Below are positions 36,765-46,752 of a DNA stretch of 64,000 nt, in pieces. The position numbers and the translations under genes are program-made. The notes beneath the pieces were generated by a model that ran no database searches, was not told where the DNA came from, and saw only the letters and a program-made list of their open reading frames with translations. How positions within the stretch are numbered: the stretch's first letter is position 1; the number at the start of each line of letters is the position of its first letter. Source of the stretch: Kandleria vitulina DSM 20405 (lineage in GTDB: Bacteria > Bacillota_I > Bacilli_A > Erysipelotrichales > Coprobacillaceae); the NCBI RefSeq assembly GCF_000702065.1, contig NZ_JNKN01000009.1, positions 1 through 64,000 of the forward strand, in the 5' to 3' direction.

Positions 36765-37187
36765 GGCTCTATAATAAAAGTGGATCGTGAGGAATGCGCT
36801 GACTTCAAACCTGCATATGATCTTTATCAGGAGTTCCTGGACATACTGCATCTCCCGCAGAGCGACTACAAGGAAGCATTGAACAACTGGATAGACAAAT
36901 GCATCGACGGTGAGTGCAAGGCATTCAGTGCATCAGCCAAGAACTTCAGGAAGAACTGGTTCCTGGCCATACTGAGATCTTTGACGTACACTGCATACTA
37001 CAGAAGAAATGGAATCACATACAGGACATCATTCAACAACGGCTTTTGCGAATCACAGAACAACAAGGTTAAACTGGTCAAAAGAAATGCATTCGGCTAT
37101 AAGTACTTCATAAATCTGAGAAAGAGAATCCTTCTTCATTTAGGCTTCAGATACACTCTTAATTTTGAAGAAACAAAAAAGGGATAA
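36765..37187 (+). pseudogene. ISL3-family element remnant: one end joined to the transposase C terminus
   Basis: GGCTCTATAATAAAAGTG (36765-36782) looks like an ISL3 terminal repeat. It is fused directly to the last 135 codons of a transposase (EECADFKPAYDLYQEFLDIL, FNNGFCESQNNKVKLVKRNA, FGYKYFINLRKRILLHLGF), which is the C-terminal DDE segment of ISL3 enzymes. The catalytic N-terminal two thirds are gone, so the GTG start at 36780 inside the repeat is not a real gene start. GC content is higher than in the surrounding DNA. The same 18-base end sequence occurs at 56487-56504. Confidence 0.8.
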
Positions 37188-37298: not shown

Positions 37299-38654
37299 CT
37301 ATTTCATTGCAGTATCCTGATTTACATCAATACCTTCAGTGCTATCCTTAACAAATAAAATCTTAACAGTCGCAAAAATAATTCTAAGATCTTCTAATAA
37401 TGAAGGTTTAGCAATATACATTAAGTCCATTAATAACTTATCATATGGTTCAGTATTATACTTACCATATACCTGTGCATAACCTGTAAGACCTGCTTTA
37501 CACTGCAGACGCAATCTAAATTCAGGAATAGTTTCATAATACTCTTCAGCTATTTCTGGTCTTTCAGGTCTAGGTCCAACAATTGTCATATCACCCTTAA
37601 GAATATTAATTAACTGAGGCAATTCATCAAATCTAATCGCTCTAATGACTCTCCCTACCTTAGTAATACGAGGATCATTTTCTCCTGCAGAAAGTACTGC
37701 TTTACCATTACTTTCTGCATTAACTCTCATGGATCTGAACTTTAACACCTTAAACTTCTTTCCGTTTTGAGTTAATCTTACTTGCTTATAGAATACTGGT
37801 CCACCATCAGACTTAACAAATATAGCTACAATAATCATTACTGGTGAAAGAATGATTATACCTAATAAAGAAGCAATAATATCTATTAGTCTCTTTACAA
37901 TTAAATACTCAATTTTAGGGTTATATTTTGTAACTCTAAAGATAGGTAAATGGAAGAAATGCATACTTTCTGCAGACATCATAAGTGTATCCCCAATTCT
38001 TGGAATAACAAAACATAAAATATTATTCTGCACACAATATTTCATAATTTCATTTCTATCTTTTGAATGTACGTCTACAAAGAAGACTGTATCAATGCCT
38101 TCAAGCATATCTTCATGATTATGTAATATTTCATCAATTTTAATAATCTTTAAGATAGTAAACTTAGAATCCATGTAGAACTCTGAAAGCTTATGAGATA
38201 CTTCTCTCTCATTACCAATGATTATTGCGGATTTTCTTTTTTCATAGATCTTGAAATATATTTTTTGTGCTAGCCAAGACCAAATAATGGATACAAAGAA
38301 TTGTCCGATTAGACACATAATTAATGGAATTGGATTGACTGTATACTCTCTTACCAAGAGAATAATCAATAGATACATAAAAAATAATGAAATAGAAGCT
38401 GATAACATCTGACTATATACTAATTCAGAAAACTTAGAATAAGATATCATCAATCCATCATAGACTTGCACTAATACTATATAAAGTAACATAAAAATGA
38501 ATACAACATAATAATTACCTTTATAAAAGAATGGATCAGTTAATCTCCATGAAAAACATTTAAACCACACGATACTAAAGAGATATGTCATCAACAAAAT
38601 ATTAATCAGCTTGATAATTCTGATAAAGGTAACTTTTCTTTTCTTTTCCTTCAT
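37299..38654 (-). CDS. priming sugar transferase, full-length (polyprenyl glycosylphosphotransferase, CpsE/WbaP-like)
   Basis: The 451-residue protein has four or five N-terminal membrane helices (about 10-130), a central CoA-binding-like domain (IIIGNEREVSHKLSEF), one more helix (about 245-270) and the catalytic PF02397 domain: KSDGGPVFYKQVRLTQNG, KFRSMR, RFDELPQLINILKGDMTIVGPRPERPE and AGLTGYAQVYGKY. It transfers a sugar phosphate to undecaprenyl phosphate at the membrane. It directly follows loaP and the terminator at 38684, so its expression should depend on LoaP read-through. A second priming enzyme lies 1.7 kb downstream. Confidence 0.93.
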   Translation of the reverse strand: MKEKKRKVTFIRIIKLINILLMTYLFSIVWFKCFSWRLTDPFFYKGNYYVVFIFMLLYIVLVQVYDGLMISYSKFSELVYSQMLSASISLFFMYLLIILLVREYTVNPIPLIMCLIGQFFVSIIWSWLAQKIYFKIYEKRKSAIIIGNEREVSHKLSEFYMDSKFTILKIIKIDEILHNHEDMLEGIDTVFFVDVHSKDRNEIMKYCVQNNILCFVIPRIGDTLMMSAESMHFFHLPIFRVTKYNPKIEYLIVKRLIDIIASLLGIIILSPVMIIVAIFVKSDGGPVFYKQVRLTQNGKKFKVLKFRSMRVNAESNGKAVLSAGENDPRITKVGRVIRAIRFDELPQLINILKGDMTIVGPRPERPEIAEEYYETIPEFRLRLQCKAGLTGYAQVYGKYNTEPYDKLLMDLMYIAKPSLLEDLRIIFATVKILFVKDSTEGIDVNQDTAMK

Positions 38655-38683: not shown

Positions 38684-38707
38684 AGTTTCTAAGAAAACTT
38701 AGAAACT
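38684..38707 (-). terminator. strong intrinsic terminator at the end of loaP, before the capsule genes
   Basis: Perfect 10-bp stem AGTTTCTAAG / CTTAGAAACT with loop TTTT, then TTTTTTATTATA on the minus strand. It overlaps the loaP stop codon and precedes the priming enzyme gene by about 30 bases. Placed within an operon, it is the natural target for LoaP-mediated processive antitermination. Confidence 0.9.
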
Positions 38708-39201
38708 ATCTCTAATCCTACTTTAACTGTAGTCACTGTATTAAACAATTCTACATCAATAAATGCTAACCGTTTATGTCGATCAATCTTCTTAATAAAA
38801 CCTTCATATCCCTTTAATGGGCCACTTTCTACAATAATGTGATCTCCCTCGATAATACCCTTAGACATTTTAATTAAATGTTCCTCAGAATACTTAAGAA
38901 GATGAAGCACTTCTTCTTTATAAATAGGATAAATATCATCCTTACCTATTAACTTAGTAAATTCAGGTATCCTCTTTAACTGAATAAAAAGATCATCTAA
39001 ATGATCAGTAACCACAAACAAATAACCAGGAAACATCACTTTCTTCTCTTTATGCCATCTCCCATGATATTTCTTCATATATTCATAATGAATAACAACA
39101 CACTCATTAAGAATAGATTTAGAAATCATAGTTTCACACTTATTGGCAATACGCTCTTCCTGTCCAGTCATCACCTGTAGTACATACCAGTTCTCATACA
39201 T
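38689..39201 (-). CDS. loaP: LoaP, NusG-paralogue transcription antiterminator
   Basis: The 170-residue protein has an NGN domain (NWYVLQVMTGQEERIANKCE, KKVMFPGYLFVVTDHL) and a C-terminal KOW domain (EGDHIIVESGPLKGYEGFIKKIDRHKR). Sequence style and gene position match LoaP, the specialised NusG that binds an RNA hairpin in the 5' leader and lets RNA polymerase pass terminators in long polysaccharide or antibiotic operons. It is the first gene of the capsule operon, with its own promoter and a 140-base structured leader. The site GGAGGTG precedes the ATG. A decayed duplicate lies at 40022-40388. Confidence 0.93.
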   Translation of the reverse strand: MYENWYVLQVMTGQEERIANKCETMISKSILNECVVIHYEYMKKYHGRWHKEKKVMFPGYLFVVTDHLDDLFIQLKRIPEFTKLIGKDDIYPIYKEEVLHLLKYSEEHLIKMSKGIIEGDHIIVESGPLKGYEGFIKKIDRHKRLAFIDVELFNTVTTVKVGLEIVSKFS

Positions 39202-39378: not shown

Positions 39379-39691
39379 ATTTAAGTAATATTATAGTTAA
39401 GGAAAAAGCGGTAACATTTCGCTATATTTTACATTTTCCTAATATTTTCATTATTTAAAATAAAGAATAATCATCCCCCCTATTCTTAACTTTTTTGAAT
39501 TATTAAGCAACCATTCGGTTGTATATTTATGAAATTAACTAATTATTGACTTTTTATTATTTTCTATTATATAGATACCTATACCTTTCTTTTATTTGAT
39601 AAAGATATAATTAAAAAATATTTCTAACCTGTGAATTATTTACATTTATATGACCCTGATTAATTATATTCAAATTAAGGAGGAAATTATT

Positions 39692-39967
39692 ATGAAAAGT
39701 ATCATGAAGATAGCTTTATCAGTTCTTTTTGCATTCACATTAATGTCTGGTATTGACAAAGCTACTAAGCAGCAAGTGTCAACACCAGTGATAGTTAATG
39801 TGTCTGCAAAGAAAAAGAAAGCAAAGAAGGTCTATTATGCAAAAAAAAGCAAGAAGTACCACAGTACTAAGTCTTGCCGTAGTCTTAAACGTTCTAAGAA
39901 GCTTTATTCTACTTCTTTAGCTAATGCTAAAAAGAAGAAATTAAAAGCATGTAAAATTTGTTATTAG
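39692..39967 (+). CDS. small secreted basic protein with Cys/His motif
   Basis: It encodes 91 residues from ATG after AAGGAGGAAATTATT; an earlier in-frame ATG (39650) has no site. A signal peptide (MKSIMKIALSVLFAFTLMSG) is followed by a linker and a lysine-rich region. The end YHSTKSCRSLKRSKKLYSTS then LANAKKKKLKACKICY matches the small YH..xC..L..S.....SL..A......C..C module found at the C terminus of secreted nucleases and wall proteins, probably a zinc or disulfide fold. It reads opposite to its neighbours and sits between the two loaP copies with its own terminator. Role unknown. Confidence 0.8.
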   Translation: MKSIMKIALSVLFAFTLMSGIDKATKQQVSTPVIVNVSAKKKKAKKVYYAKKSKKYHSTKSCRSLKRSKKLYSTSLANAKKKKLKACKICY

Positions 39968-40005: not shown

Positions 40006-40023
40006 GATCGGCATACGCCGATC
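40006..40023 (-). terminator. hairpin at the end of the decayed loaP copy
   Basis: GATCGGC-GTAT-GCCGATC on the minus strand, then TTTTC. It overlaps the pseudogene stop, showing that the C-terminal coding part was replaced by a terminator-bearing segment. Confidence 0.75.
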
Positions 40024-40388
40024 AAAAGGGCTCAATTTCAATAATGAGCTGATCCCCTTTAATGATTCCTTTAGACATCTCAATAAGATGTTTATCAGAA
40101 TACTTAAGAAGATGAAGCACTTCTTCCTTATAGATAGGAAAGATTTCACTTTCACCAAGTAACTTGGTGAAATCAGGAATCTTCTTTAGATTGACATATA
40201 ACTCATCAACCTTATTTGTAACCATAAACAGATAACCAGGAAATAAAACTTTCTCTTCCTTGTGCCATCTTCCTTGTTACTTCTTCATATGTTCATAATG
40301 CAAGACTACACATTCTTCTAGAATATCTTTAGAAATAAGTGACTGACATTTATCAGCTATCACTTGTTCCTGTCCAGTTCTCATACAT
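40022..40388 (-). pseudogene. decayed second copy of loaP
   Basis: It starts MYENW like loaP, but 23 bases between two ACTGG repeats are missing, shifting the frame; TGQEQVIADKCQSLISK continues in the new frame. A TAA interrupts HYEHMKK*QGRWHKEEKVLFPGYLF, and the protein ends at the start of the KOW domain (KGIIKGDQLIIEIEPF). The NGN part is about three quarters identical to LoaP at 38689-39201 by eye. Leader and promoter are retained upstream. It may be the relic of a second LoaP-driven operon that has been lost. Confidence 0.88.
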
Positions 40389-40492: not shown

Positions 40493-40730
40493 AATCAAAC
40501 AATTTTTACAAAATTTTGACTTTTTGATATTTCTACTATATTACATTTTGTGTTGTAAAACAATTTTATTTTACGTAAATATAACTCTTAAATCGCCCTT
40601 CACCGTATTTTAAACGCTTACACATCTAATTATCCTAAATACAGAATTATTAATAGTTCATCATAAAATCATCATATTTTAATAAATATGTTAGCTTTAA
40701 AATAGAAAATAGAGATTATTTCGATAATCT

Positions 40731-41915
40731 CTATTTCAAATGTAAGTCTTTTATCATTTTATTTTTTTTCTTATAATTTTTATATCCGTCTACTACAGTA
40801 GAGATTCCTCTACTGTTTCTCACTTGTCTTATGTAATAAATAATCTGATAGATCCATGCAAATGGTCTTAATACAATGTATTTCTCTGATGCTTTCCAAT
40901 TAACTCTGCCACACCTATGTAGATTTCTGAAAACATGAAATGGTTGTGAATACAATTTTATAACCATTTCTGCTTTAGTTATATCTATACTCTTTCTACC
41001 GAAATTCCCATAACTTGTCACGCTTTGAAATATATATTGTTCTAAGTCCTTATCGCAATCCAAATCATGATAAGCGAATCCGAAATAATCTATACATATT
41101 TGAATACACACTTCCGCAAACTTACGAAGATTGACTTTTTCACTATATTTTAAGAATTCTTCGATATCATTTATATGCTTTATACATTCATAAAAATCAA
41201 TAAGCTGTCGATATCCTACACCACTATTTTTAAAATGCTGCAAGATATGCTTCAATAATACCAATCCATTAATCAATGGTGGTAAACACGGAAATGTATG
41301 TTCATTAATAGAATGATACTCACATTGATCAATACCTTCATAGATCATCTGATCTAAAAGATTTTTTTCTTTGGTACGTTCACCATATGTAAAATAATTG
41401 TGTAACTCAATTATAATGTTTTCATTTGTCTTATAACTAATATGACGATCATTTTTATACAAATCATCCTTAAACTTATAGTTTTTCTGCTTGTCATAAA
41501 CAAGTACATAATGTCTACTTAGTAACTCATAAGCTTTATTGAAATCCTCTGGCTTAACAATAATATCTATATCACCCATAGTACGATATTCTGGATGAGG
41601 ATAGTACATAGCTGCAGCTGCACCTTTTAATATAACAAGGGGAATGTCTGCATTTTTAAACAGTACTAACATTTGTGTTTGTGCGTGAAGCAGCTGATAG
41701 CTATGAGCTATATTTTGAAAACAAAGCCTCTTATATTCCTTAAGTTCTTCTGATTTTAAGAGGTTGCTTTCTACAATGTTTTTATAAGGAAGACAAAAAA
41801 CGGTATGATTTTTTAATTCTTCTAATGTTTCATTCCAATGAGGAAGTTCTTCTATTTGTTCATTGTTTAATGCTTTTGATAATAATGTTAATACATTCTT
41901 ATCTACTTCGTTCAT
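40731..41915 (-). CDS. nucleotidyltransferase family protein (PF14907 type)
   Basis: This 394-residue protein has the NTP_transf_5 core: ADIPLVILKGAAAAMYYPHP, then EYRTMGDIDIIVKPEDF with D115 and D117 as the metal-binding pair, and a third acidic position in the strand IIELHNYF. The C-terminal half is helical. Family members accompany kinase-containing lasso peptide and other peptide clusters, where they are thought to transfer a nucleotide or nucleotide-derived group; the substrate is not established. It is the last gene of the peptide-modification operon, 6 bases after the S26 peptidase gene, with site AGGAGG. A terminator is not evident downstream. Confidence 0.88.
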   Translation of the reverse strand: MNEVDKNVLTLLSKALNNEQIEELPHWNETLEELKNHTVFCLPYKNIVESNLLKSEELKEYKRLCFQNIAHSYQLLHAQTQMLVLFKNADIPLVILKGAAAAMYYPHPEYRTMGDIDIIVKPEDFNKAYELLSRHYVLVYDKQKNYKFKDDLYKNDRHISYKTNENIIIELHNYFTYGERTKEKNLLDQMIYEGIDQCEYHSINEHTFPCLPPLINGLVLLKHILQHFKNSGVGYRQLIDFYECIKHINDIEEFLKYSEKVNLRKFAEVCIQICIDYFGFAYHDLDCDKDLEQYIFQSVTSYGNFGRKSIDITKAEMVIKLYSQPFHVFRNLHRCGRVNWKASEKYIVLRPFAWIYQIIYYIRQVRNSRGISTVVDGYKNYKKKNKMIKDLHLK

Positions 41916-41921
41916 AGTTTT

Positions 41922-42347
41922 TTACCTCCTTATTCTTCTTAGGAGTGATTTCATATAAAGAATCATTATTCTAATATATAGAAAGTCACACCATAAATGT
42001 ACATAAATCTGATAAATCTTATTTGTTTGATCTATTCTTTTTCCGTCTCTGATCACCGCTTCTAAAACCCCAATAATTTGCTGATCAGTAATGCCATATT
42101 CTTTATGGACGCAGTGATCTCCTATAATCACGTAGTCATTCTTTCTGACTTTGATGATACGATGCAATATGTATCTGTTTCCTATCCTATAAAGGACCAC
42201 ATCATATTTTTTGCATCTCTCTTTTCCTTTCTTATTTATAAGCATGATGTCCTTATTCTGGCGAATGAGAGGCATCATGCTTACTCCTACATTTGTAAAG
42301 GCAATGTGTCCATGTTTTTGTAGTTCTTCTTCGAATGTAGATTTCAT
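41922..42347 (-). CDS. S24/S26-type signal peptidase-like protease
   Basis: The protein has 141 residues from the ATG at 42347, which overlaps the kinase stop codon as ATGA; an upstream in-frame start inside the kinase gene is unlikely. TNVGVSMMPLIRQNKDI carries the nucleophile Ser23. The second block, VVLYRIGNRYILHRIIKV then DYVIIGDH, has His62 where bacterial Lep enzymes have Lys, as in SipW/ER-type signal peptidases. A hydrophobic helix near the C terminus (WCDFLYIRIMILYMKSLL) would anchor it. In this operon it is the candidate leader peptidase for the 117-residue precursor-like protein. Confidence 0.85.
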   Translation of the reverse strand: MKSTFEEELQKHGHIAFTNVGVSMMPLIRQNKDIMLINKKGKERCKKYDVVLYRIGNRYILHRIIKVRKNDYVIIGDHCVHKEYGITDQQIIGVLEAVIRDGKRIDQTNKIYQIYVHLWCDFLYIRIMILYMKSLLRRIRR

Positions 42348-43075
42348 TGCATACCCTCGTAGGCGACTTTCGCCGCATCTTCTCGTGTATTGCACTCTAA
42401 TTTATACAGTGGCACTTTGGTGCCTAATTCTTTTAGAAGAAACATGGTTTTTTCCATCTTGTCAATATCAGTCGGACGGTAACATTGCTTTAGTAGTGCA
42501 GGGAAGGCTTGGGTGAATGTGAGGCGGTGTATGTTGTTGTGGGGGGAGCGTTCGAGTAGGCAGATGGCTTTGAGGGGGACGTTTATATTGGTGCTGATAT
42601 GGTGTTTGCCATCCCAGGGTGTCCCATAGATGATAACTTGGTTTTCTTCAATCTTAATCAAGGGCTTATCATCATTAATCATTACCGCTCTTTCTTTAAA
42701 GAGCTTTCTCCATAACCTAGTATGTGTGCTTTTGCCTGTGCCGCTCTTGGCGGTGAAGAGGTACCCCTCTTCATCCACGGCAATAGCACTTCCATGAAAC
42801 AAAAGAATATCTTGAGAAAGCAGCTCTTCGACAAGCTTGCGGTACACCGCAAGTGTCTCTAAATAACTATCGGAGAATATACGAATAGGATTTCCTTCAT
42901 AAAGATCTTCTTCTTTTGATTTCATTCGCTCATAGTCGATATCACTTGGCATAGTTGTAATAATAAACTGCGGCACTCCATCACACCTATAATCAGAACA
43001 CAGATCATGCACTTCCTGATAAAGAGAATCAATCTCTACAAGAGTATCCGCAATTCTATAGATTCCTTTGATCAC
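42344..43075 (-). CDS. HPr-kinase-like serine kinase of peptide-modification type
   Basis: The 243-residue protein starts at GTG in a GTGA overlap with the PqqD-like gene. LLFHGSAIAVDEEGYLFTAKSGTGKSTHTRLWRKL contains the P-loop SGTGKST at 111-117, followed by MINDDKPLI (N134-D136) and YGTPWDGKHH. These blocks are those of the HPrK/PEPCK-like kinases of lasso peptide clusters that phosphorylate the C-terminal Ser of the precursor (paeninodin type), not of true HPr kinase, which is longer. The target here is probably the product of 46228-46581. Confidence 0.88.
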   Translation of the reverse strand: MIKGIYRIADTLVEIDSLYQEVHDLCSDYRCDGVPQFIITTMPSDIDYERMKSKEEDLYEGNPIRIFSDSYLETLAVYRKLVEELLSQDILLFHGSAIAVDEEGYLFTAKSGTGKSTHTRLWRKLFKERAVMINDDKPLIKIEENQVIIYGTPWDGKHHISTNINVPLKAICLLERSPHNNIHRLTFTQAFPALLKQCYRPTDIDKMEKTMFLLKELGTKVPLYKLECNTREDAAKVAYEGMQ

Positions 43076-43341
43076 GGAATAAGCACACCTTCATGTAATA
43101 ATGTATTAAAGAAAGACTCCAGCATCTTCCCTATTTCATCCTTACTAGAATCCGGATACTTTTCCATCATGGCCGCATGAACCTTTTCTGGTGTTGTATC
43201 TTCTTCTAGTAATGAAAAGATCTCTACGCCTATATCATTTAGACGAATTACACCATGCAATTGATCCTTTTCATCACCTACTGGTACAGCGACAATCTCA
43301 TCTCCCATATCCACAATCTTAAACTGATATCTTAACTTCAT
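43072..43341 (-). CDS. PqqD-like peptide carrier (RRE protein)
   Basis: The protein has 89 residues from the ATG at 43341 (AGGAGG 9 bases upstream). Its fold signature is PqqD: YQFKIVDMGDEIVAVPV, LHGVIRLNDIGVEIFSLLEE, DTTPEKVHAAMMEKY and a C-terminal helix SFFNTLLHEGVLI. Such proteins bind the leader of ribosomal peptide precursors and present it to the tailoring enzymes. It overlaps the acyltransferase gene by 23 bases and the kinase gene by 4, so all are made together. Stand-alone PqqD plus kinase is strong evidence for a peptide-modification operon. Confidence 0.92.
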   Translation of the reverse strand: MKLRYQFKIVDMGDEIVAVPVGDEKDQLHGVIRLNDIGVEIFSLLEEDTTPEKVHAAMMEKYPDSSKDEIGKMLESFFNTLLHEGVLIP

Positions 43342-44386
43342 TTTCTTCATCCTCCTCAAAACGCATTGAATCCACGCATCCTCTCACTACGATTCCTATA
43401 AGTAAACTTGTAATAAACGCCACAATAGAAACTAATGGAGCGAGATAATAATAGTAACGAGATAACAAATTTCTAATCATCAACAAATAAATGATTCCAC
43501 ATATTTGATGAAAAGCATAAACGTATTTCACATAATGTCTCGCATTACTGATTAAATAGTTATCTTTGTACATAGGTTGCTGTCCCCAGTCTTCTCTCAT
43601 AATGACATAACCACATAGCACACACGCCAATAACCCATTCCCTATCATATGGCCTGTATAAATGAGATTGTTGCTTTTAGATAATGCTTGTATTTCTACT
43701 ACAGTTAACCAGACTGAAACAGGGATAAATGTTAAATAAATCTCCATCCTATGTTTAACAAAATACTTTCTGTTTCTGCCAATGATTCTTCCTAGCAGAA
43801 GATAAGGGAGTGATCTTGTTATCACGGTTGAAGGAATATGAGTATAGCCTAAGAAATTGAAATGAATGATATTTGCTAGTTCACCTGTTAAAACAGCTAT
43901 AATAAGACAAATCAAACATATGATGTAGTCATACTTCAAAAGATCCAGCTTTTTAAGTATATAAATTGCGACATAGCCATAAAGGAGACATTGAATAAAC
44001 CAGAACGTATCTCCAATTGGTAAGAACCAGGCGTTCAATGCAACAAACTGGAAGATCATTCTTTTAGAAGTCATGAAAGCTTTCATGACTTCTAAAAATG
44101 ATTGTTTTCTTAATGCAAGATAAACAATATTAAGAAGTAAATAAAAGAAAAATAATGTTAATGCCATTATGCCTGTGCGACGTATTGCTGCTTTTATTTT
44201 TTGTTCAATATGGTGATTATGACGTAAGACAAGAAAACCAGAGAGAATAAAGAAACAAATATAGGCAAAACCACTAATGATTTTTAAATAAGCGCCTAGC
44301 TGTCCTGGAAATGAGAAAGTATTTACACAGACAAAGATCATAAGAACCCATCTTAGTATATCAATATAGTAATAACGTCTTCTCAT
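43319..44386 (-). CDS. acyltransferase family 3 membrane protein in peptide operon
   Basis: The protein has 355 residues from the ATG at 44386, chosen for AGGAGGTGATAATC before it; an ATG at 44395 overlaps the exporter stop. About ten helices are present: YYYIDILRWVLMIFVCVNTF at the start (the usual catalytic His is absent from this helix, which has Asn instead), GFAYICFFILSGFLVLRHNHH, and late YAFHQICGIIYLLM. Loss of the first-helix His suggests an altered or non-catalytic role. It is unusual for such a gene to lie between an exporter and a PqqD protein; acylation of the peptide product is a guess. Confidence 0.8.
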   Translation of the reverse strand: MRRRYYYIDILRWVLMIFVCVNTFSFPGQLGAYLKIISGFAYICFFILSGFLVLRHNHHIEQKIKAAIRRTGIMALTLFFFYLLLNIVYLALRKQSFLEVMKAFMTSKRMIFQFVALNAWFLPIGDTFWFIQCLLYGYVAIYILKKLDLLKYDYIICLICLIIAVLTGELANIIHFNFLGYTHIPSTVITRSLPYLLLGRIIGRNRKYFVKHRMEIYLTFIPVSVWLTVVEIQALSKSNNLIYTGHMIGNGLLACVLCGYVIMREDWGQQPMYKDNYLISNARHYVKYVYAFHQICGIIYLLMIRNLLSRYYYYLAPLVSIVAFITSLLIGIVVRGCVDSMRFEEDEENEVKISV

Positions 44387-44391
44387 GATTA

Positions 44392-46161
44392 TCACCTCCT
44401 ATTATCTTCCATGATTGTCTTATGTTGAAGTCTATAGATGCGATCACATTGATCCAACACACTTGTACGATGTGTAGATATGATGCATGTCTTATTGGGA
44501 CGTTGTTGGATGATATTTTTAAGCACTCGTTTTTCCGTTTCTTTATCTAATGCGCTAGTGGCTTCATCAAGCATTAGAATAGGTGAATCTCTAAGAATGG
44601 CTCTTGCGATAGAGATACGTTGTGCTTGTCCCATCGATATTCCTCGCCCATTATCGCCAAGTCGGCTATTAAGGCCATCTGGAAGCTGTTCTACAAACTC
44701 CCATGCACAAGATAGCTTTAATGCATCTACGATTTCTTCGTCACTGGCCTCTTCCTTGACCATTCGCATGTTCTCTGCGATTGTCCCTGAAAGAACCGTA
44801 TTCCCCTGTGGTACATAGGAGAAAAGCTTTCTAAGATCAGCATTGATACTCACTTCGTGACCATCAATGCCATAAAGAAGGACTTCTCCTTCTTCAGGAT
44901 GAATAAGACCCAGCAACATTCTTAATAAGGTTGTCTTCCCTTCTCCCGAAGGCCCTAAGATAGCTACAATCTCGCCTGGTCTAGCGATGAAATGACTATC
45001 CTTATAGATAACATGATCTTTTCTATATGAGAAAGTGGCATGACGCATTTCTACAGAAATGCCTTTGTCTGCCATTTTCTTCATATCTTCATAGCTTTGT
45101 GGATCATGATATTCTTTTTGCAATTCCACCAATTCTCTTACACGGTGAGCTGAAACAGCACTGTTCATCATGCTGGGGAATGTTCTTACCAATGAATTAA
45201 AATTACTAGACAAGGCACTTCTTTGTTGGAGAAAGAATGTCATATCCCCATAAAGAATCTGACCTGTCCATAAACGATAGAGGCAGTAAAAGAAGGCCAC
45301 CATCGCAACGGCGGTAGAAAGAAGTGTCATCATGATATTAGCCTTGATTTCAAATTTATTATAATCAAGATTAAAGATCTTAAACTTTTTCTGCCACTCT
45401 CTTAATGTTCTTGAATAATGGTCAATAATTCCAAAAGATTTGATTGTATCAAAGTTCTCAAATGTCTCTACTTCAAAAGACATCATCTGAGAATTCAATT
45501 CCAAGACCCTCTTTCTATACTCTTTCAGCTTTCTCATGATGAATCGTGACATGACCATAAGAACAGGTGCAGATAAAAAGGCTATTAAAGCCATAATAGC
45601 ATCCATTCTTACCATAACCACAAAGGTGATAATAAATGTATAGACATTAATGATAAGACTAGGAATCCACCCAATGGCATTGCTAGAAATGGTGCTGACA
45701 TCAGAATTAAAACGATTCAATAGATCTCCATTTTGATATTTGTTTAAATCTTCCCATTTAGCATCAATAATCTGATCAAAGATTTCAGATTGAATATCAT
45801 TGTTTACAAAAATAGAGATCTTCATAGAAATACGACTCATGACAGAGCTAAAAACCATAGAAAAAAGTGTGGAAATAAGCATAGTAATAATCAAGATCCA
45901 AAGATTTTGATATTGCTTTTCAACGATAATATTGATAAGCATACGACTTATATACGAGGCTCCTAATGATAAGGTAGAACTGAATATTCCTAAAAAAGTA
46001 TAGAAAACAATAATCCAACGATATCTTTTGGAAAAAGAAAAAATCCATTTCCAATCGTCAATGAATTCAGAAAAAGTTCCATCGTCAATCTTGTCCATCA
46101 ACAATTGAACAGCCCCACTTTGAATAAACTTATTCACACCTGAGTATTTCTTTTTTTCCAT
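44392..46161 (-). CDS. ABC exporter, fused permease and ATPase
   Basis: The 589-residue half-transporter has an N-terminal cytoplasmic extension (about 50 residues), six membrane helices (about 55-310) and an ATPase domain with Walker A GPSGEGKTT, signature MGQAQRISIARA (the LSGGQ reads ISMGQ), Walker B SPILMLDEATSALD and the switch His in CIISTHR. No N-terminal C39 peptidase is present, so leader removal must come from another protein, plausibly the S26-type protease. It directly follows the precursor-like gene and should export the mature peptide as a homodimer. Confidence 0.93.
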   Translation of the reverse strand: MEKKKYSGVNKFIQSGAVQLLMDKIDDGTFSEFIDDWKWIFSFSKRYRWIIVFYTFLGIFSSTLSLGASYISRMLINIIVEKQYQNLWILIITMLISTLFSMVFSSVMSRISMKISIFVNNDIQSEIFDQIIDAKWEDLNKYQNGDLLNRFNSDVSTISSNAIGWIPSLIINVYTFIITFVVMVRMDAIMALIAFLSAPVLMVMSRFIMRKLKEYRKRVLELNSQMMSFEVETFENFDTIKSFGIIDHYSRTLREWQKKFKIFNLDYNKFEIKANIMMTLLSTAVAMVAFFYCLYRLWTGQILYGDMTFFLQQRSALSSNFNSLVRTFPSMMNSAVSAHRVRELVELQKEYHDPQSYEDMKKMADKGISVEMRHATFSYRKDHVIYKDSHFIARPGEIVAILGPSGEGKTTLLRMLLGLIHPEEGEVLLYGIDGHEVSINADLRKLFSYVPQGNTVLSGTIAENMRMVKEEASDEEIVDALKLSCAWEFVEQLPDGLNSRLGDNGRGISMGQAQRISIARAILRDSPILMLDEATSALDKETEKRVLKNIIQQRPNKTCIISTHRTSVLDQCDRIYRLQHKTIMEDNRR

Positions 46162-46227
46162 ACCTCATTCCCCCTATAAGAAAAAGATTGGAAGTGAGTA
46201 GCCTTCCTAATCTTTTAAAGCATTCAT

Positions 46228-46581
46228 TTAATAATCGCCATGTGATGCGTCGGGAGCTTCATTCCACCAAGACCAATCGCTATGTCCATCATAAATATAA
46301 GCACTATAGCCAGTAGATGATCCATCATAGGTAATACCACTTGTATATTGTGTAGTCCCCCCGTTATGTTTTAATTCTGTGTTGCTACCAAGTTCAGCAA
46401 CAGGTGTGTTAGTGTTAGAATTATAATCATAAACAAAATAACTATTGTTTTGATTATTGCGATGCAAAATTCTATCTCCTGTTTGCAACGAATTAACTGT
46501 ACAATTTATAACACCACTTGTAGCAATTACGTCTTCAGCATCGAATCGTACGATTTCAATATATGGTTTGTTCATTTTCAT
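46228..46581 (-). CDS. precursor-like peptide of a putative RiPP operon
   Basis: The product has 117 residues. The N-terminal KPYIEIVRFDAEDVIATSG fits the leader of many Firmicute precursor peptides (hydrophobic-E-x-x-x-F...EDVI.TSG). The remainder is rich in Asn, Thr, Ser, Gly, Tyr and Trp with almost no Lys: NNSYFVYDYNSNTN, SGITYDGSSTGYSAYIYDGH and SDWSWWNEAPDASHGDY at the end. It is the first gene of the operon, 67 bases before the exporter gene, with site AGGAGGTTTATTT. The Ser residues in the tail are candidate kinase targets. No homologue is recognised beyond the leader. Confidence 0.75.
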   Translation of the reverse strand: MKMNKPYIEIVRFDAEDVIATSGVINCTVNSLQTGDRILHRNNQNNSYFVYDYNSNTNTPVAELGSNTELKHNGGTTQYTSGITYDGSSTGYSAYIYDGHSDWSWWNEAPDASHGDY

Positions 46582-46752
46582 AAATAAACCTCCTTCTAAA
46601 AATTACCTATAGGTTTTTGATTTATTGTTCATGATCTACTCCTCATTAAACAACCGTTTGTTAAAAATATAACTAAACTATGACTTAAATGTAACATTAA
46701 ACGCTTACATTGTCAAATTATCATCAATTTATCAAAAAATCATTCAATAGAA

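Follow-up and report, generated by a model that had tools for sequence, protein, structure and literature searches.

The 64,000-nucleotide stretch of Kandleria vitulina DSM 20405 analysed here (contig NZ_JNKN01000009.1, positions 1 to 64,000; hereafter the window) carries, from 46581 down to 40731 on the minus strand, seven open reading frames (ORFs) in one 5′ to 3′ series. They are referred to below as precursor, ABC, acyltransferase, PqqD, KIN, S26 and NT, the last being the PF14907 protein (Table 1). This operon resembles those for ribosomally synthesized and post-translationally modified peptides (RiPPs) and belongs to a widespread, apparently unnamed family of gut Firmicutes. It is not a lasso peptide cluster, and on balance its gene content is best explained by the production of an exported, leader-directed, modified small protein that carries no ring.

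A sequence-only reading of the region had proposed an operon of precursor, exporter, PqqD carrier, Ser-kinase, S26-type protease and nucleotidyltransferase, and both the ORFs and the family assignments were confirmed. Its title left out the acyltransferase, which we count as an operon member because the gene overlaps its neighbours on both sides. Likewise, the seven genes had been called tightly overlapping, which holds for genes 2–7 (overlapping or nearly so), whereas the precursor is set off from ABC by 66 bp. All reading frames are intact. The promoter-like sites of the region did not exceed in total those of shuffled sequence, and an Rfam search of the window from 36 to 52 kb gave no match.

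Table 1. Features of the operon region, listed in the direction of transcription.
Feature	Position	Strand	Basis
Promoter-like site TTGACA-17-TACATT with TG, upstream of precursor	46688..46716	-	consensus match only
Precursor, 117 aa	46228..46581	-	22-23 residue leader MKMNKPYIEIVRFDAEDVIATS(G) + 95-aa core; leader HMM (hidden Markov model) E=2.1e-11
Terminator-like hairpin in the precursor/ABC gap, possible attenuator	46190..46207	-	fold z -1.9, weak
ABC exporter, 589 aa, without C39 peptidase domain	44392..46161	-	ABC_membrane + ABC_tran (Pfam)
Acyltransferase 3 family membrane protein, 358 aa	43319..44395	-	PF01757 Acyl_transf_3, 47.2 bits
PqqD-type carrier, <=95 aa (start uncertain), putative leader binder	43072..43359	-	PF05402, 39.5 bits
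HprK-like kinase (KIN), 243 aa	42344..43075	-	Hpr_kinase_C 17.5 bits; NCBIfam HprK-related; both below curated cut-offs
S26-type Ser/His protease, 142 aa counted from ATG	41922..42350	-	NCBIfam sigpep_I_arch 28.9 bits, below curated cut-off
PF14907 nucleotidyltransferase-fold enzyme (NT), 394 aa	40731..41915	-	Pfam NTP_transf_5 115.7 bits
Stretch with strong terminator hairpin, operon end, just past NT stop	40690..40745	-	fold z -4.9

The precursor carries the leader motif KPYIEIVRF..EDVIATS, and an HMM seeded on seven such peptides found no further leader in the host genome. Across the family the leader (consensus MKExYExPEMEVIEFExEDVITTSG) is the sole conserved part of the precursors; no credible Pfam or NCBIfam model match was obtained for any of 38 members, and the literature gave no match to the motif in a text search, which is a weak test for peptide letters. 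The window core begins with GVINCTVNS and ends with GDY. Its tail had been described as rich in Ser, Tyr and Trp, a fair if incomplete account: with 11 S, 9 Y and 3 W, the core is also rich in N (12), G (10) and T (10). Its calculated average mass is 10,550.9 Da when counted from Gly23 and 10,638.0 Da when Ser22 is included. Most relatives have precursors of 30-50 aa, the majority with cores of ~9-26 aa, and the 117-residue protein of the window is an atypical, long-core form of the family. Other long cores occur at locus L127, where a 133-aa precursor accompanies the same seven gene types including the acyltransferase, and in genome G145, which combines four dispersed long-core precursors (one with a Hint-like domain, below cut-off) with a PqqD/KIN/S26/ABC/NT operon that lacks the acyltransferase. 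Beyond the leader the long cores align poorly.

All 74 registered leaders (64 registered by script, and 10 mis-registered ones read by eye) have a Ser as the closing residue of the motif, and 13 cores contain no Ser, Thr or Tyr after it. Because it is invariant, and because those cores offer no other hydroxyl residue, this Ser is a candidate modification site, provided that it is kept in the product; it could equally serve recognition by the protease or the carrier. Several other arrangements of the leader were seen. At L261 (5664-6659) it is fused into a 331-aa protein whose Hint/intein-like domain scores under the Pfam cut-off, and at L269 (6809-7692, genome G133) five tandem leader peptides with Thr-rich cores lie beside PqqD, S26 and kinase genes. 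Leaders with Cys-containing cores were found at L088, L091, L092, L095 and L137, with adjoining radical SAM genes in L137 and L092, which suggests a thioether-forming subtype.

The enzymes retain the residues expected for activity. In KIN, three elements do not vary across 8 homologues: H94, the SGTGKSTH sequence and the second Asp of NDDKP. By analogy with HprK they would be its catalytic His, Walker A and Asp elements. The S26 protein had been noted to have His in place of Lys; this proved correct, since all 8 homologues compared carry Ser24 and His63 in place of the bacterial-type Ser/Lys dyad. A Ser/His pair and small size are shared with some S26 signal peptidases, including the Ni-SOD maturation protease family, from which the window protein differs by scoring below the curated cut-offs and by lying in a PqqD/kinase operon. 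NT has the conserved KG...DxD motif plus Glu, and its model matched nucleotidyltransferases best in a fold search (MenT1, E=1.1e-5; LnuA, 8.4e-4); the phospho-ribitol transferase FKRP was listed as well, weakly (E about 0.1, probability up to 0.98). When profiles of NT, kinase and S26 were searched against the sequences of solved structures, no meaningful match was obtained. PqqD, the only such protein in the host genome, is assigned to the PqqD-type B1 proteins through PF05402, and reaches 19 bits against the 80 needed for the lasso-specific NCBIfam model. The acyltransferase has a relative beside the precursor of L127 (E=5.6e-46), the only one among the loci compared, and no close relative at E<=1e-15 in 395 genomes of the class.

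To place the operon in a family, we used a kinase alignment to scan a single genome of each species and obtained at least 586 relatives, the best 80 of which were analysed as loci; many lie on short or cut contigs, some come from related species, and the counts are not tree-weighted. Nearly all are from gut Clostridia. Although these loci were picked by the kinase alone, they contained PqqD in 65 cases, S26 in 61, ABC in 46, and NT and a leader peptide in 38 each. The converse search, with the leader only, found 19 leader-positive genomes among 311 of the order, and 17/19 were also kinase-positive against 74 kinase-positive genomes in all (hypergeometric p=6e-10, an optimistic value because the genomes are related). 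The KIN-PqqD-S26-ABC-NT set recurs in gut Clostridia without a cyclase, and the recurrence is far beyond chance. The same reading would have fallen if the precursor were not conserved beside the other genes; the leader is in fact kept both beside the kinase set and genome by genome with it. The family shows the general features of RiPP loci, namely a conserved leader and a variable core encoded together with modifying enzymes and an exporter. Many genomes hold several leaders, up to 10, distant from the enzyme operon. The relatives include cultured hosts, e.g. Ruminococcus flavefaciens Y1 and Coprococcus catus VPIC661. Among more distant kinase relatives, those at L048, L050, L053, L055 and L056 share their loci with apparent CpsB-type phosphatase and Wzz-type chain-length genes, as judged by N-terminal sequences only.

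The scope of the sequence-only reading proved narrower than the system, since the wider family often adds giant surface proteins and core-tailed membrane proteins that the window does not have. Of 73 leaders, 30 follow a secreted protein that measures 450 aa or more, is encoded on the same strand and ends no more than 200 bp upstream, compared with 36/670 control ORFs of the same loci (p=6e-16). The N-terminal parts of these giants vary (BspA leucine-rich repeats, Transglut_core, Big_2, GH32), and many end in a tandem pair of ~120-aa domains with a confident predicted structure (pLDDT 90.7). This C-terminal domain had no Pfam match in the giants scanned and no PDB match better than E=0.18 in a fold search, and no function could be read from it; within the order, 13/17 genomes that have it also have the kinase (p=3e-6). 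Three weak local alignments that might have been copies of the core inside giants were judged to be chance. At L250 (2245-6114) the gene for a secreted GH32 protein of the levanase/inulinase type is directly followed by a leader peptide gene.

A small membrane protein or lipoprotein, which we call a stalk, is often encoded between leader and kinase (16/75 by a strict filter). At its C-terminal end it is similar to the core encoded at that locus. Specifically, the core GELPFVPAE of L128 faces a stalk ending in ...IELPFVPAF, NCPNETEIL of L181 faces ...GPNETEILP, and NLDEDELPWVPANE of L104 faces ...EEDELPWIPA. Over the 16 pairs, picked without using tail similarity and including one that is clearly not a stalk, own pairs scored 25.3, a value reached in 0/100,000 permutations (p<1e-5), against 15.1 for swapped pairs. 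Where longer ORFs of these loci contain an LPFVP-type motif, it lies at a stalk C-terminus in 10/11 cases. Stalk and kinase also occur together with the other genes not nearby, at L060 (8555-9004) and L102 (8415-8945), where the stalks end in ELPFIPIENIQ and ELPFVPIN. The similarity, together with the position behind giant secreted proteins, raises the possibility of a common partner for core peptide and stalk tail, perhaps the C-terminal domain of the giant. No giant or stalk lies beside the window precursor, and the host genome lacks the C-terminal domain of the giants.

Taken together, these data suggest the following pathway. PqqD would bind the leader, and the HprK-like kinase would phosphorylate a Ser or Thr near or within the core, for which the closing Ser of the leader is the best candidate. 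NT would then add a sugar or sugar-phosphate to this phosphate, or alternatively a plain nucleotide; the S26-type protease would cut at the ATS/G junction, the ABC protein would export the product, and the acyltransferase may, as an optional step, acylate the added group. We regard leader-directed modification and export as highly likely, and phosphorylation of the peptide as likely. Action at the cell surface is favoured over a free antibiotic because the short cores usual in the family are often encoded directly after giant secreted proteins, and by analogy with these relatives a surface role of the window product is a reasonable possibility. A fuller picture, which we put forward more tentatively still, is that of one branch of a previously undescribed system of gut Firmicutes for surface display or surface-protein control. 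One operon would modify several leader-tagged peptides, each with its giant, and a stalk would present the same tail in unmodified form; the two tails would then hold, or vie for, one surface partner. The window peptide would have grown to a 95-residue domain. Sortase and exosortase surface sorting offers an analogy, in that one enzyme set serves several dispersed secreted proteins with a common C-terminal domain. In the relatives, unlike in such sorting, every secreted protein has a distinct leader-core peptide as its partner, and the window has no such clients.

Several points weigh against this pathway. The kinase and S26 family matches stay below curated cut-offs. The surface role reaches the window by analogy only, for want of a giant or stalk there. 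The kinase could have a substrate other than the peptide, as the stalk and kinase pairs of L060 and L102 illustrate, and the peptide kinases of this kind that have been described act on a Ser at the C-terminus, a residue missing from the window core. Finally, the reaction of PsmN, the NT-like enzyme of the lasso peptide pseudomycoidin, is itself not settled in vitro, and the enzyme may nucleotidylate first.

Since several of its parts are lasso tailoring partners (kinase, PqqD and NT), the operon might be a degenerate or incomplete lasso cluster that has lost its B2 leader peptidase and cyclase or relies on ones encoded at another site of the genome; a Thr near the leader/core junction and a Gly at the core start would also fit. 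The host genome (2.13 Mb, 75 contigs, 99.9% complete) gave 0 matches to the B2 domain Transglut_core3 (PF13471), and none exceeded the cut-off in 46 relative genomes. Its Asn_synthase matches are AsnB on contig C56 (MCGI start, N-terminal Cys glutaminase), a polysaccharide-cluster protein on C11 and a weak match on C16, none of them an operon-paired cyclase of the lasso type. The absence of leader protease and cyclase claimed by the sequence-only reading, and the chance of finding them elsewhere in the genome that it had named as its refutation, were both settled in its favour. Moreover, there is no Asp or Glu at core positions 7-9, no frame is broken, and many genera share this cyclase-free set, with a leader motif of its own, which together make decay from a lasso cluster very improbable. 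Compared with the kinase-bearing clusters of paeninodin and pseudomycoidin (psmK/psmN), the operon shares the HprK-like kinase, PqqD-type carrier, ABC exporter and leader-directed logic, and with pseudomycoidin alone the nucleotidyltransferase-annotated enzyme. It lacks B2, the Asn-synthetase-like cyclase, the macrolactam residues and the C-terminal Ser, has an S26-type protease instead and uses another leader motif. We rejected phosphorylation of a C-terminal Ser as in paeninodin, because the core has no such residue (the PadeK/PsmK-type substrate) and relatives' cores end in varied residues; another site may be phosphorylated instead. The lasso region of Butyrivibrio fibrisolvens plasmid pNP243 (L218), also from a gut Firmicute, shares PqqD and NT and has an S24/S26 peptidase and a second PqqD nearby, but differs in having B2, an asparagine-synthase-related protein, GT2 and a two-component system. 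Searches of plasmids with the kinase and with NT gave three distant and two matches, respectively, among them an NT on a Ruminococcus albus plasmid without kinase or PqqD. SynChlorMet (ScmC) and other radical-SAM clusters likewise share an HprK-related kinase, PqqD and a small precursor, whereas the window operon has no radical SAM gene; a cluster of radical-SAM proteins occurs in 8/80 relative loci.

Two further explanations concern what the enzymes act upon. The sequence-only reading expected phosphorylation and perhaps nucleotidylation (+329/345 Da), by which NT would attach a nucleotide such as AMP either to the phosphopeptide or straight to Ser, Thr or Tyr. The fold of NT and its conserved KG...DxD and Glu are compatible with this; PsmN, which has the same annotation and the same kind of kinase partner (PsmK), decorates a phosphoserine with one or two hexoses in vivo (PMC8498205, PMC9266682), and FKRP appears, weakly, in the fold search too. 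Nucleotidylation is therefore rather unlikely, and we would favour glycosylation over it on the PsmN precedent, not on the fold; because PsmN adds hexoses, shifts of +80 and then about +242/+404 Da are expected first. Alternatively, KIN and NT might modify a cell-envelope glycan or another protein, the leader peptide serving only as a bacteriocin or exported signal. The operon does lie close to genes for a sugar transferase, a NusG-like antiterminator and a GT2 protein, and some relatives are located in polysaccharide regions. Kinase and leader nevertheless co-occur genome by genome, PqqD belongs to a peptide-carrier family, and many relatives' sets adjoin no polysaccharide gene, all of which renders this alternative quite improbable. 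We thus retain the leader-directed peptide pathway as the preferred reading. In its essentials, an operon for leader-directed modification and export with lasso-type parts and no cyclase, the sequence-only reading stands, though not with the 117-residue precursor as the typical form.

In the flanking sequence, the intact antiterminator gene (38689-39201) precedes the sugar transferase gene (37299-38654), near which lies a C-terminal fragment of an ISL3 transposase (36780-37187). A degenerate second antiterminator copy (40022-40225; 64% identity over 66 aa) separates the intact one from the operon. Just beyond the operon, 39650-39967 on the opposite strand encodes a small secreted protein that is rich in Lys and has a Cys-rich end, with a weak match to Ada_Zn_binding.

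A RiPP class usually takes its name from an enzyme that forms a ring or alters the backbone. Although the parts are known from lasso tailoring, a cyclase-free class with its own leader and an association with giants and stalks appears new: no published description was found in the open-access papers searched, and no described class with this set in the libraries searched, as the sequence-only reading had supposed. If our reading is true, a widespread class built on no more than kinase, NT-fold transferase, carrier, protease and exporter would give gut bacteria a new way to make phosphorylated or phospho-glycosylated peptides, and standard genome mining that looks for cyclases would overlook it. 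The relatives in turn raise the question of why a modified secreted peptide shares its tail with a membrane protein and sits behind giants of such different kinds (leucine-rich repeat, transglutaminase-like and GH32).

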